From Rhizobiales bacterium Y(2018) (lineage in GTDB: Bacteria; Pseudomonadota; Alphaproteobacteria; Rhizobiales; Aestuariivirgaceae), in assembly GCA_005502925.1 (NCBI GenBank), contig SCPD01000001.1:868001-932000 (forward strand): a stretch of DNA of 64,000 nucleotides, in the 5' to 3' direction. The notes under the pieces were generated by a model. It had not been told where the DNA came from. It worked only from the letters and a program-made list of their open reading frames with translations, and did no database searches. Position numbers and translations under genes: made by a program. This document shows, one piece after another, positions 37,133-42,083 of this stretch. Every line of letters starts with the position of its first letter. Position 1 is the stretch's first letter.

Positions 37133-39358
37133 ATGGCTGATCTTACGATCACTGCCGACCTGTTGACTCGTGCCGCGAAACGAAACTGCTACGCCGTCCC
37201 ATCGACGGGGATGGTCTTCTTCGGAATCCGCGGCCTTAAGCCGGAACTTCCCATCGATACCAACTTCGGCCAGAGCCGCGCCGGGCAGTTCTCTTCCATC
37301 GACTTCCAGCACATGAACTGCACGCTCGGCCAATGGAAGGTCGAAAGCGGGGATATCGCGATCTTTCCCGGCTCGACGGTTCCCTCGATGCCGAACATCG
37401 TCAGAGCGAGAGAAAGAGGCGGCACCGGCACGAACATGCTCATGCTCGGGCGTTATGAGCATGAGAAGGGTATTCACAAGGCGACGAAGCCAGGCGGTCA
37501 CCGGGCATTCCGGCAAGCCATGTTCTTTCCCGTCTGGCGTACGATCGACAATCTCTCCTACGATCTCTCCGACAAGCTCGATCTCGGCAGTGACGCCGGC
37601 TCATTCGTCTGGGACAACCTCCATTCAGCCTATTCCGACAGTCTCGATGGCTATAGCAGCGCCGGCTGCCAGGTCGTGTGCGGCCTGCCGCGCTCGCCCG
37701 CGCGCAACAACCAGCCCGAGACCGGTCCTTGGCGAACTTTCATCGACAACGCCTATGGGATCAGCCAAAACCGCTTCGTCTATCTCCTGTTTTCCGCCGA
37801 GGAACTCGCTTTCCTCGACAAGGCCGAGATTGCCAAGGATGTGACACAGCTCGTCCGCTTCGGCTCCTCAGGCCCGCCGGTCAAGGACATCCAGTCGGCG
37901 CTGACCACGAAGGGTCTGCTGCAAGGAGATCCCGACGGTGATTTCGGCCGAGATTCGCTGCGTGCGCTGATGGCGTTCCAGGCGAGGTCCATGGGCCCAT
38001 CGGCTGCCGATGGAGTCTGTGGTGGCAATACGGCATCGATGCTCGGCGTCACTTTGCCCACCCTCACAAAAGCCAAAGCGGCGCCGCAACCCAGCCAGCC
38101 GGCGCCATCCGCCACCGGTGATAATCCTGAACTCGAAGACGAAAGCGATCTCGACGATGCGACATTGCAACGGCTGCGCGTCATCATTCTCGGTTTGACG
38201 GGCGCCCAACCGATCCTCACTACAACCACCCCCAGCACCACGGTCCCTGCTCCCATGACCACTTCCCAGTTCGACGCCGAGCGCTCGCGCGCCAATTTCG
38301 AACGCGCCCAGGCTCTCATCAAGGAATTCGAAGGCGGTTTCGTCGACGATCCCAAAGATCCCGGCGGAGCGACGAATTTCGGCATCACCCATAGGACCTT
38401 GGCGAGCTGGCGCAAGAAGCCCGTCACCAAGCAGGATGTCTTCAACATGTCCTATGACGAGGCCAAGGACATCTACTTCGCCGAATATTGGTCGAAAAGC
38501 TCCTGTGGCTCGATGCCCGGCCCGCTGGCGCTTCCGGTCTATAATGTCGCCGTGCATGCCGGTCCCGGAGCAGCGGGCAACTTCCTGCGTCGCGCGCTCA
38601 ACCAGAACGGCGCGACGCTGAAGTCCGAGGGCATGATCGATGACGAAACGATCGGCGCCCTGGCCAAGGCGCGACTGGGAGATCTGACGAGCGACTTCAT
38701 CGATCTTTACGAGGCCAAGCTTCGCGCTCATCCGAATTTCGCCCACTTCAAGAACGGCTTCCTCAGACGGGTGGCCAAGCTGCGAGTGGAGTCGGACAAG
38801 TGGCTCGCCGAAACAGGCGCCGAAATACTCGTCACGCCCCCGATCGAACCTGACAACGAAGGAGTGTCAGCCGTGTCCAACAAGGAAGAGTTGATCGCCG
38901 AACTCAAGAAACTGCTGCCCGCCATTCTGGCAGGTGGCGCTGTCGCAACAGGCGCCACCACGACATCCACAGTACAGCCCGGGGTCGCGGCGCCGGGATC
39001 GGCCATGCCGCAGGATCAGGCAGACGCCATTGCCGCCATTCTGCGTCAGATCCTGGAGAGCAGCGCCGGCAAGCCGACCCTCACGCCGGTGAACGGAGCT
39101 CTGGGCCTTACCATCGGCAAGCTCCTCGATGGACGCAAGAGCTTCATCGGTATCGTCGGCGCGGTGCTGAGCTCGCTCCTCTCCCCCACTGCGGGTGTAG
39201 GCGCGGCGAGTACGCTGGGGCCGCTTGCCGCCCTGCTGCCGGGCGCGCTCGGCACTTTCCTCTCCGGCGTAGCGCCAGTGCTCTTGCCGATATTCCTGGC
39301 GCTGACAGCCTGGGGTGGGCTCGGCAAGCTGGACAAATACGCAGCGCAACAGAAGTGA
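37133..39358 (+). CDS. Multidomain murein hydrolase: LDT-like N-terminus, PG-binding domain, GH108 muramidase, holin-like tail
   Basis: This 741-residue protein has four parts. Residues 1 to about 230 form an unfamiliar domain with His164 and the GYSSAGCQVV motif (Cys179), which resembles the catalytic H...S-x-G-C pattern of YkuD L,D-transpeptidases. Residues about 236-300 are a PG_binding_1 domain (VRFGSSGPPVKDIQSAL, DGDFGRDSLRALMAFQ). After a Pro/Thr linker, residues about 390-560 are a GH108 muramidase with the catalytic pattern KEFEGGFVDDPKDPGG (Glu400) and NFGITHRTL, followed by the matching peptidoglycan domain. The last 73 residues are strongly hydrophobic (AVLSSLLSPTAG; PVLLPIFLALTAWGGLGKLD) like tails of phage endolysin-holin fusions. 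GAGAGGGACCT precedes the ATG. No classical signal peptide. A lipase gene follows on the same strand. Confidence 0.85.
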   Translation: MADLTITADLLTRAAKRNCYAVPSTGMVFFGIRGLKPELPIDTNFGQSRAGQFSSIDFQHMNCTLGQWKVESGDIAIFPGSTVPSMPNIVRARERGGTGTNMLMLGRYEHEKGIHKATKPGGHRAFRQAMFFPVWRTIDNLSYDLSDKLDLGSDAGSFVWDNLHSAYSDSLDGYSSAGCQVVCGLPRSPARNNQPETGPWRTFIDNAYGISQNRFVYLLFSAEELAFLDKAEIAKDVTQLVRFGSSGPPVKDIQSALTTKGLLQGDPDGDFGRDSLRALMAFQARSMGPSAADGVCGGNTASMLGVTLPTLTKAKAAPQPSQPAPSATGDNPELEDESDLDDATLQRLRVIILGLTGAQPILTTTTPSTTVPAPMTTSQFDAERSRANFERAQALIKEFEGGFVDDPKDPGGATNFGITHRTLASWRKKPVTKQDVFNMSYDEAKDIYFAEYWSKSSCGSMPGPLALPVYNVAVHAGPGAAGNFLRRALNQNGATLKSEGMIDDETIGALAKARLGDLTSDFIDLYEAKLRAHPNFAHFKNGFLRRVAKLRVESDKWLAETGAEILVTPPIEPDNEGVSAVSNKEELIAELKKLLPAILAGGAVATGATTTSTVQPGVAAPGSAMPQDQADAIAAILRQILESSAGKPTLTPVNGALGLTIGKLLDGRKSFIGIVGAVLSSLLSPTAGVGAASTLGPLAALLPGALGTFLSGVAPVLLPIFLALTAWGGLGKLDKYAAQQK

Positions 39359-39467
39359 ACCGCGGCGCTGCCCGCGCGGTGAAAAAAGAGATAAACGGGC
39401 CGCATTGAGTGGGGAAGGCGCGGACGAGCAAGATCCGCGCGTAAGGAACGACGAGGGCGCTGCCGGG

Positions 39468-42083
39468 ATGACCGGCAATGGGGATGGGGAACGGCACATG
39501 GGCGGCAGGAATCTTGTCGTCTTGGCCGACGGCACCGGCAACAGTGCCGCCAAGGCTTTCAAGACGAATGTCTGGCGTCTTTATGAGGCGCTCGACCTGA
39601 ACGGAGCCGATCAGATCGCTGTTTTCAGTGACGGCGTCGGCACATCGAGCTTCAAACCTTTCCAGGTCATCGGCCTCGCTCTCGGCTTCGGCGTCAAGAA
39701 GCGCGTGCTGGCCCTCTACAAGTTCCTCTGCCTCAATTACCAGCCAGGCGACCGGATCTATGCCTTCGGCTTCAGCCGCGGCGCCTTCACGATCCGCATG
39801 CTGGTCGGGCTCATTCATCGCGAGGGCTTGGTCAAATTTACCTCGACCCAGGAGCTCGACCGCAATGCGGTCGCCGCCTATCGCGCCTATCGCCAGAAGG
39901 CCTTTCAGGCTCGGATGTGGTGGACTACGAGTTCTCGTCGCTTGCGCGATCGATGCATAGAGGTCTGGAACAATTTCACCCGCGGCAAACCCTATTCTGA
40001 GGTAAGGCCCAAGGCGGGTGATCCGCGCGCGGCGGAGAGTGTGAAGGTGCATTTCCTGGGTGTCTGGGACACCGTGGCCGCCTATGGTCTGCCCATCGAT
40101 GAGCTGACGCGGGCCGTCGACCGCTGGATCTGGCCGATGTCCTTCGGGCGTGGCCTTCTCTCCTCCGTCAAGCGCGCACGCCAGGCTTTCAGCATCGACG
40201 ATGAAAGACGAACCTTCTTCCCCATTCCCTGGCTGGAGAGTGAGCGCGAAGACCTGCAACCAAAGAACGATGAGCCGCCACGCCTCAGGCAAGTATGGTT
40301 CGCCGGCGCACATGCCAATGTCGGTGGCGGTTATCCCGATGATCGGCTGGCCTATATTCCCCTGTGCTGGATGATCGGGGAAGCGGCGGAGGCCGGCTTG
40401 CGCTTCGATGCCGAGATCGTCGCCGACTATTGGGATAGTGCCTCGGAGAGCGGCCGCCGTTACGATCCGCGTTCGGGCGTGGGCGTCTTCTATCGCTATC
40501 ATCCGCGCTCCGCTCAGGAGCTCATGAACGGCCTTTCGACAGAGACCGACGCCCCCAAAAGGCTTCCCCTTGTCGATGCCAGCGCCATCATCCGCATGGC
40601 GAAGGGCTCCGATCAGTATGGTCCGATCGCCTTGCCGGAAGAAGTCGAGGTGCTCACGCCTTATGACGACGTCGTCCCCCTCACCCAGCTCGGTGGTGCG
40701 ACCAAGGTTGCCCCGCCGCCCAAGCGGCCCGACAAGCTGCCGCTTCCGGTGGGCCGGACCCGCGATCTGCAGGCCATGCAGCAATCTCTTTCCGATGTCG
40801 CCAATAAGATCGTAGCGGCCAGGGGCCCGCTACGCTCCGAGCGCGTGGACTTGATGCACGACAGCGTCTGGTGGGGACGCGCGCTTTATTATGTATCCCT
40901 GGTACTCTTCGTCCTGGCCGGGCTTTATCCGCTCTATGCCGGCTATCCGACGATCGGGATCATCTCCGATCTCAATGACATTCTCGGCGGCGTCATCGGC
41001 CCGGTGATAGAACTGCTGCGCAGTTTCCTCCCCGCCATGGTGGCACCCTGGCTGCAGGCAATCACCGACAATCCGGCTGGCGCCCTGGCGCTCGGTGTGG
41101 CGATCGGCGGCTGTCTGTGGATCGGCAAGTTCCTGCGCATCCGCATTCACGACCGGGCGCGCGCCGTCTGGAATATCGACCATCAGGAGGATAAGGCCAA
41201 CAGCGGCGAGGCGCGCAAGGACGCGCAGCGCCGTACACTGTGGGGTTCGGCCCTCATCTTCCTGTTCAGCTCCGTAGTGGCGCTGGTCGTCTCGTCTCCA
41301 CTGACCACCAAGTCCCTCATCACCGCCGGCGTTCTATTTGGGATTGCGGCGATATGCGCCCTGCTGGCGGCAAGGCTCGGCCGCGCCGAGACCAAGGCAG
41401 AGGCAAGCGCGCCGCCACGGACACTGCGCTTCGCGCGCGCAATCCGGAAGAATGATGCGGCAATAGCCCTCTATTGCTTCCTCAAGAATACCGGGCTTCC
41501 CCTGGTCTTTCTGGTTCTCACGTCGGTCTTCCTCCTAGCCGGCCTCAACAAGGCGACATTCGAGATCGTGAGCTCGATCGGAAAGATCTGTCCTGAGCCC
41601 GGTCCGGCCAATGCCACCATGGCCGGCACGTTCGACACGACGAAGAATATGTGCGCGGATACCGGCATCGATCTGGTGAAGGGACAGAGCTACAAGATCA
41701 AGATCGATATTCCGCAGAACACCGCCTGGAAGGATGCATCATATTGCGCCGGGGTTTACGGTGTCGATGACACCATCGCTTGGCCGGACTCTCTTCCCTT
41801 CTATTTTGGGGCATCGGCCAAGCGCTGGTGGTCGGAGCCCTATTTCCGACCGATCGCGCGCATCGGCCGGCGTGGCAATGACGAATATGCCCTCGTCCCG
41901 ATCAAGGCACCGGAGTCGAGCAACAAATGCGAAGCAGGCAATCTGGAAGCCCTCATCACCGCGCGGAAAACCGGCCGGCTTTATCTTTATGTCAATGACG
42001 CCGTCGTCTCCGTGCCGGGACTGCACAATTTCTTCTACGAGAACAATGAGGGCTCGGCGAATTTCTCGGTGGAGAAGTTCTAG
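39468..42083 (+). CDS. DUF2235 (Tle1-like) lipase with membrane helices and lectin-like C-terminal domain
   Basis: This 871-residue protein begins with a DUF2235 alpha/beta-hydrolase domain: VLADGTGNSAAK, AFGFSRGAFTIRML (nucleophile Ser103), GVWDTVAAYG (Asp201) and FAGAHANVGGGY (His282), the triad layout of Tle1 phospholipases. About five hydrophobic segments follow (near residues 469-490, 538-554, 590-610, 615-637, 676-697). The last 150 residues (about 720-871) form a beta-rich domain ending GRLYLYVNDAV and FYENNEGSANFSV, like PA-IL/galactose-binding jelly rolls. The start could be ATG 39468 or 39498; the latter has GGGGA upstream. It follows the muramidase gene by 109 bp and is probably co-transcribed. 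Stop lies 1 bp from the convergent LysR gene. Confidence 0.84.
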   Translation: MTGNGDGERHMGGRNLVVLADGTGNSAAKAFKTNVWRLYEALDLNGADQIAVFSDGVGTSSFKPFQVIGLALGFGVKKRVLALYKFLCLNYQPGDRIYAFGFSRGAFTIRMLVGLIHREGLVKFTSTQELDRNAVAAYRAYRQKAFQARMWWTTSSRRLRDRCIEVWNNFTRGKPYSEVRPKAGDPRAAESVKVHFLGVWDTVAAYGLPIDELTRAVDRWIWPMSFGRGLLSSVKRARQAFSIDDERRTFFPIPWLESEREDLQPKNDEPPRLRQVWFAGAHANVGGGYPDDRLAYIPLCWMIGEAAEAGLRFDAEIVADYWDSASESGRRYDPRSGVGVFYRYHPRSAQELMNGLSTETDAPKRLPLVDASAIIRMAKGSDQYGPIALPEEVEVLTPYDDVVPLTQLGGATKVAPPPKRPDKLPLPVGRTRDLQAMQQSLSDVANKIVAARGPLRSERVDLMHDSVWWGRALYYVSLVLFVLAGLYPLYAGYPTIGIISDLNDILGGVIGPVIELLRSFLPAMVAPWLQAITDNPAGALALGVAIGGCLWIGKFLRIRIHDRARAVWNIDHQEDKANSGEARKDAQRRTLWGSALIFLFSSVVALVVSSPLTTKSLITAGVLFGIAAICALLAARLGRAETKAEASAPPRTLRFARAIRKNDAAIALYCFLKNTGLPLVFLVLTSVFLLAGLNKATFEIVSSIGKICPEPGPANATMAGTFDTTKNMCADTGIDLVKGQSYKIKIDIPQNTAWKDASYCAGVYGVDDTIAWPDSLPFYFGASAKRWWSEPYFRPIARIGRRGNDEYALVPIKAPESSNKCEAGNLEALITARKTGRLYLYVNDAVVSVPGLHNFFYENNEGSANFSVEKF

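Follow-up and report, generated by a model that had tools for sequence, protein, structure and literature searches.

A wall hydrolase with a C-terminal membrane domain beside a DUF2235 membrane lipase in Rhizobiales: a candidate phage-independent cassette for opening the cell envelope

Gram-negative cassettes for lysis or release are known mainly as combinations of holin, endolysin, and spanin, and both phage lysis cassettes and the T10SS bring about release by cutting the wall and opening the membrane. Among phage endolysins, Enc34 and M4Lys have their wall-cutting domain on the N-terminal side and a membrane domain at the C terminus (two-helix in Enc34), with no Sec signal described, and M4Lys lyses Escherichia coli without a holin (PMC8943055, PMC7143992). 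Overproduction of a phage endolysin with such a membrane domain is reported to lyse E. coli in a manner that depends on the domain but on neither holin nor Sec (PMC7143992; PMC8943055 on the related Enc34). Outside phage, the small typhoid toxin islet combines the muramidase TtsA and the phospholipase TtaP with toxin subunits as cargo (PMC11525133). TtaP is a phospholipase A2 of 125 aa resembling DUF1353 proteins, for which the authors favor a role in toxin secretion but found no phenotype (PMC11525133).

We analyzed a gene pair, A and B, in a 64,000-nucleotide stretch (the window) of the 7.1-Mb genome of Rhizobiales bacterium Y(2018). As the original prediction held, a murein hydrolase gene (A) is followed on the same strand, after 109 bp, by a DUF2235 lipase gene (B); both are intact ORFs with Pfam support, the start of B being unproven. 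Like Enc34 and M4Lys, A has its wall-cutting domain on the N-terminal side of a C-terminal membrane domain, and the membrane domains are alike by description. Unlike these phage lysis genes, whose catalytic family is given as PHA02564 (PMC8943055, PMC7143992), A combines GH108 with PG_binding_1 and an SxGC domain, lies outside phage, and is paired with a lipase. The typhoid islet offers the parallel of a muramidase and a phospholipase in a small non-phage locus, but TtaP as described is a small PLA2 and not a DUF2235 protein, and no counterpart of the toxin subunits is seen at A-B (PMC11525133). T6SS Tle1 effectors share with B a PF09994 catalytic domain with conserved Ser, Asp, and His; B differs from them by its roughly five predicted membrane helices, its C-terminal domain, and its genus, which has no VipB. 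As for the GTA and prophage endolysins of the order, these have a GH108 catalytic domain like that of A, but their neighbors include GTA tail and holin families and give no DUF2235 or patatin match. Finally, in contrast to the T10SS and phage cassettes, the wall hydrolase here carries a putative membrane hairpin of its own and the second component is a lipase; we recognized neither a spanin gene nor a separate holin gene beside A-B.

Gene A (37133..39358, + strand, as are all features given here) encodes a 741-aa wall hydrolase with syntenic orthologues in two further genomes, G054 and G057. Pfam, alignment, and hydropathy give the domain order SxGC domain, PG_binding_1, GH108, and C-terminal two-helix domain. 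The N-terminal SxGC domain (residues 1-235, 37133..37837) contains two motifs, DN(L/I)H and YSSxGC, in which D161, N162, H164, S176, G178, and C179 are invariant in all seven aligned relatives; none of the seven members matches a Pfam family here up to E 1. We take the SxGC motif to resemble that of YkuD, as a likeness of motif only. A YkuD L,D-transpeptidase identity was not adopted, as no member gave a Pfam YkuD match at E ≤1, a true YkuD scoring 1.7e-21. The SxGC regions of A and of a Sinorhizobium GH24 enzyme align with an hhalign probability of 91.4 (from shallow profiles), and a weak match of residues 98-184 to phrog_3000 (E 1.3e-4, PHROGs) leaves room for a remote phage link of this domain. 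Its structure prediction, from a two-sequence alignment, was unusable (mean pLDDT 33.9).

The PG_binding_1 domain of A (residues 246-304, 37868..38044; Pfam E 1.5e-8) is followed by Glyco_hydro_108 (residues 396-477, 38318..38563; E 7.4e-24), in whose EGG motif E400 is presumably the catalytic residue. This is an endolysin catalytic domain, since residues 382-610 also match the endolysin family phrog_315 (E 1.4e-33, PHROGs). A PDB sequence search returned a structural relative of the GH108 part, 7dnp, a "secretion activator protein" (2.9e-23); TtsA is, we assume, a GH108 enzyme too. The C-terminal domain (residues 641-741, 39053..39355), recognized by hydropathy and an alignment of seven sequences, matches no Pfam family up to E 1 over its ~100 residues. 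Its hydrophobic stretches, 671-689 and 706-724, would form a membrane hairpin with both ends inside, and by eye no signal sequence is seen at the N terminus of either A or B. Both this domain and the SxGC domain had been missed by the original prediction.

Gene B (39468..42083) is an intact ORF for an 871-aa DUF2235/Tle1-like membrane lipase (Pfam PF09994). The 109-bp gap to A is measured from the ATG at 39468; the frame is open from a GTG at 39315, and the start is not proven. As in T6SS Tle1 proteins, the catalytic domain is of the DUF2235 family (residues 14-304, 39507..40379; PF09994, E 5.2e-67). S103 (in GFSRG), D201, and H282 are invariant in 14 of 14 long homologues and, by analogy with TleB as described in PMC12421835, would form a Ser-Asp-His triad. 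Hydropathy bears out the membrane helices claimed for B, with about five predicted in residues 472-693 (40881..41546), near residues 472, 538, 590, 617, and 675. By the positive-inside rule the loops 557-589 and 636-674 are probably cytosolic, so that the lipase domain would lie on the inner side and residues 694-871 on the outer. This C-terminal domain (41547..42080), predicted from hydropathy to be periplasmic, contains two cysteines, C708 and C729, that are conserved in all 14 long homologues. Its description as lectin-like found no backing: the C terminus has no Pfam match and B no PDB match by sequence, both up to E 1, and an AlphaFold model from the single sequence was unusable (mean pLDDT 39.3). 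For A and B alike, the predicted topology comes from hydropathy and charge.

In the window the neighbors of A-B are genes for a molybdopterin oxidoreductase, a LysR protein, and a peptide-transporter binding protein; neighborhood genes were called by a simple script, which may have misplaced some starts or erred on small genes. A and B are found together, in the same order, in three of the five genus genomes (the window's own, G054, and G057), flanked in all three by the same molybdopterin oxidoreductase and LysR genes. The other two (G055 and G056), one of them only 87% complete, have neither A nor B, and no more than distant LysR matches (25% and 24% identity at best). Genus, family, and order are used here as assigned by the search database. 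The dN/dS values of 0.20 (A) and 0.11 (B) against G054, and 0.18 (A) and 0.22 (B) against G057, indicate purifying selection on both genes. The A-B gap is free of terminator-like sites; there is one inside A, at 39237, and the region holds eight such sites, against 3.8 in shuffles. A contig search with A as query gave one relative. A second GH108 stretch in the same genome (G000:C22:580066-580887; loci L002 and L037) is 70% identical to A residues 370-648, has one in-frame stop, and lies 3' of a repetitive ORF of at least 2969 aa.

Wall enzymes from Sinorhizobium, Tateyamaria, and a genome of another family, G145, end in a stretch that aligns with the last 100 residues of A, with 19 invariant columns in seven sequences. 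This C-terminal domain is a sequence handle for finding further cases. Of 397 genomes searched in the order, 13 match its profile, 11 strongly (E ≤3e-20; two weak matches, G403 and G218 at E ~5e-4, were excluded and a 117-aa fragment of a carrier enzyme in G177 was kept); of 385 in the class, two match, the window and another that scores weakly. In Pfam terms the carrier enzymes are diverse: PG_binding_1 with GH108 in the window, M15_4 with GH108 in G145, VanY with GH108 in G096 and Tateyamaria, GH24 phage lysozyme in S. meliloti and G146, M15_4 with a below-cut-off GH19 match in G351, and PG_binding_1 with an unnamed region in G365 and G382. By similarity alone, G152 goes with G145, G269 with G351, G394 with G382, and the enzymes of Ensifer, R. 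leguminosarum, and other Sinorhizobium with the GH24 enzyme of S. meliloti. The GH24 enzymes also carry the SxGC region that aligns with the N-terminal domain of A.

Homologues of the two genes are adjacent in other genomes, which agrees with the claim that wall- and lipid-directed enzymes form a conserved unit. A DUF2235 gene is the immediate neighbor in two of the 11 strong carrier loci, the window and G145, where a GH108+M15 relative precedes DUF2235 in the order A to B. Three more have a patatin match next door (G365, 3.3e-10; G351, 4.9e-6; G269, 3.2e-5), the latter two under the Pfam cut-off. Together, a lipase-like neighbor is found at 5 of 11 carrier loci vs. 0 of 38 GH108 genes lacking the domain (Fisher p 2.4e-4), the control being not context-matched and drawn, by our choice, from the top of the GH108 list, one locus per genome and not merged by genus; with test loci of the same genus merged and controls unmerged, the figures are 4 of 8 vs. 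0 of 38 (p 4.3e-4). The 38 come from 40 control loci, no gene having been called at the GH108 position in L149 and L152. Their 76 neighbors, scored with in-house DUF2235 and patatin models beside the Pfam families listed (25 of 45), gave no in-house match up to E 10; eight match GTA tail families and three GTA_holin_3TM. Plain GH108 genes of the order often neighbor GTA or phage genes, and this GTA-type neighborhood is itself the contrast to the carrier loci. Several carriers count against a cassette: G096 (whose neighbor is BON/OmpA), G152, G177, G382, G394, and Tateyamaria have no lipase neighbor. In G146 the neighbor is alpha/beta-hydrolase-like but below cut-off (DUF900, E 0.038) and was not counted as a lipase. 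A GxSxG motif was not found in the patatin-like proteins of G269 or R. leguminosarum, again a point against. An extra survey around G145, in four genomes, added nothing.

Plasmids extend the pairing. Full-length relatives of the S. meliloti wall enzyme (GH24, SxGC, and C-terminal domain) occur in 12 plasmid records, and in nine of these an intact DUF2235 gene lies no more than two genes from the wall gene: S. meliloti BL225C, S. fredii NXT3, six E. adhaerens (one species, with adjacency in four taken from match coordinates), and R. leguminosarum RCAM1365. At the two E. adhaerens loci that we read, a different, shorter type of DUF2235 protein is encoded 65 bp after the wall gene. In RCAM1365 the DUF2235 protein is divergent; after the wall gene comes one for a multi-helix protein that shares 40% identity with the patatin-like protein of G351, and then one for a large protein with a GHSFG motif, so that the two lipase types are combined here. 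The S. meliloti BL225C and S. fredii clusters have DUF1353 genes within or next to them, a further parallel to the typhoid islet, where TtaP resembles DUF1353 proteins. A full-length match to B occurs in four plasmid records; the two from Sinorhizobium have the wall gene, and those from Caballeronia and Microvirga have no A-like gene.

Three Sinorhizobium clusters (L057:8902-20409, L058:9007-18113, and L181:3198-12603) hold DUF2235, GH24+SxGC wall enzyme, and caspase-family genes, and a 710-aa-type protein with a CxTHDYC motif, which we take to be phospholipase-A2-like; in L181 the DUF2235 gene is a remnant and a pYEATS protein is present, and the first two clusters have DUF1353 genes within them or alongside. 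The N-terminal domain of A also occurs with PG_binding_1 in Rhizobium proteins with other C termini (L062:8974-16789 and L063:8815-15707), in L062 near SIR2-family genes and a trypsin-endonuclease fusion.

Our favored reading, held tentatively, is that A and B form a two-gene, phage-independent cassette that opens the producer's own envelope, for lysis or for release. The synteny in three of five genus genomes, the G145 pair, the excess of lipases at carriers over controls, the nine of 12 plasmids, the predicted topology, and the reported holin-free lysis by an anchored phage endolysin (PMC7143992) speak for it. A would act as an endolysin-like wall hydrolase, with a muramidase and a second domain that perhaps acts on peptides, and its own C-terminal membrane hairpin would make a separate holin unneeded. 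B would reside in the inner membrane as a phospholipase whose catalytic domain faces the cytosol, and its periplasmic C-terminal domain could sense a signal. On a trigger, B would damage the membrane and A would then reach and cut the wall, so that the producing cell would lyse or let out a large cargo. We infer here co-transcription, the enzyme activities, the topology, self-targeting, the trigger, and the cargo. Since no signal sequence is seen and the catalytic domain of B is predicted to be cytosolic, self-directed opening is favored over attack on neighbors. One point from the phage literature counts against the cassette: for C-terminally anchored endolysins, the route of the enzyme across the membrane is itself described as unexplained (PMC8943055). 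No cargo gene was recognized at the pair, and the third linked gene, for immunity or cargo, that had been envisaged did not materialize, none being common to the loci read.

The main competing explanation, which we judge possible but unlikely, is that A and B are toxins delivered into competitors by another route, the swapped domains and an exchanged A allele reflecting an arms race. DUF2235 is the domain of T6SS Tle1 lipases (PMC12421835), and the full-length Caballeronia homologue of B (34% identity) sits in a VgrG/PAAR-like/DUF2169 cluster. Moreover, between the window and G054, dS is 1.29 for A, about five times that of its neighbors, and 0.18-0.29 for B and seven flanking genes, and the drop in identity (L035) runs from ~37200 to ~39300 with sharp borders; A but not B was thus apparently replaced by recombination with a distant allele. 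Such an exchange fits delivery, or a role against phage, at least as well as it fits a cassette. Against delivery, VipB (PF05943) is absent from all five genus genomes, one of which is 87% complete, in a search that detects it in E. coli, one of 14 control genomes; no immunity-like gene is common to the loci read; and B is predicted to be a resident multi-helix protein with a cytosolic catalytic domain. The want of VipB in the genus sustains the claim that the pair lies outside a T6SS and was our reason for rejecting an orphan T6SS effector. A phage-sheath family matches in two of the five genomes, above cut-off in G054 only. At a separate locus (L039, in G029), the large proteins next to a distantly related GH108 protein (34% identity) appear to resemble parts of an extracellular contractile injection system.

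Patatin-like lipases are known defense effectors, and the S. meliloti and S. fredii clusters contain caspase-family genes along with those for DUF2235 and the wall enzyme. Both observations would suit an anti-phage suicide device, in which infection sets off both enzymes and kills the cell before phage can be released. We nevertheless hold it to be quite improbable: neither A nor B has a PADLOC match up to E 0.1, no sensor gene is seen beside the pair in the window, and a wall hydrolase would presumably help, not hinder, late phage release.

We give similarly little credence to an incidental adjacency, with A a stray endolysin derived from phage or GTA and B a separate lipase. In its favor, the GH108 part resembles phage endolysins, with the phrog_315 match and with whole A matching 177 phage records, the GH108 part alone being covered among the 25 matches listed. 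A wall enzyme like our reference proteins adjoins only one of 17 long DUF2235 loci of the order (G145) and is absent at 16, in a comparison of neighbors by BLAST and motifs that could miss unlike wall enzymes, which also counts against a cassette; the 17 are 16 loci plus G025, chosen by score and open frame, with G083, G316, and G441 left out. In addition, three Sinorhizobium plasmids keep the wall gene with a DUF2235 remnant (S. meliloti ml28 and S. medicae SU277) or with no DUF2235 within 6 kb of it (S. americanum). However, the pairing recurs in other families, with nonhomologous catalytic domains and different gene orders, beyond the control, and in 50,697 phage records B has no match at E 1e-5 and A residues 1-235 and its last 102 residues have none up to E 0.01. 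Pattern scans of viral contigs, which can miss distant relatives, found no relative of the N-terminal domain of A or of B and one of the C-terminal domain, in a VanY+GH108 enzyme on an IMG/VR contig (L137), after which comes a multi-helix protein whose patatin match is below threshold (0.0023). A prophage lysis cassette was rejected on the non-phage neighbors of A-B and the lack of a phage match for B; the original prediction had likewise seen no obvious prophage lysis cassette, and of the A-architecture loci read, one of them on that contig, none looked like a complete prophage.

Of the parts expected of a T10SS-like release system, domain types for a wall hydrolase and a putatively membrane-active partner are both present outside phage. 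The C-terminal domain on swapped catalytic parts (GH108, GH24, or GH19-like; M15 or SxGC), with DUF2235 or patatin-like partners, suggests modularity. With less confidence than for the locus itself, we raise the possibility of an undescribed class of lysis or release cassettes in Alphaproteobacteria, used for programmed lysis or cargo release, in which bifunctional wall hydrolases with this C-terminal domain and interchangeable lipases (DUF2235, patatin-like, perhaps alpha/beta hydrolases) would replace holin and spanin. If it holds, such a recurrent combination of membrane lipase and anchored wall hydrolase would be a further means of opening the envelope. It bears on why TtaP, a phospholipase for which no role was found, travels with the typhoid islet muramidase (PMC11525133). 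Among the matches listed in the open-access literature, no paper concerned such a wall-hydrolase/lipase pair.

Further arrangements were noted at other loci. In G437, a long DUF2235 gene (L100:7724-13014) lies beside a gene for a divergent 724-aa protein with a stretch like the PG-binding domain of A (45%, 3e-6). Elsewhere, a wall hydrolase, a multi-helix patatin-like protein, and a large GHSxG protein form three-gene sets (L129:780-9289, L133:431-9075, L184:6001-13755, and L185:6001-12368), with the wall gene of L185 reduced to 188 aa. The large proteins give no blastp match at 1e-5 across the two lineages concerned; the patatin-like proteins are 40-45% identical, and the gene orders are opposite.
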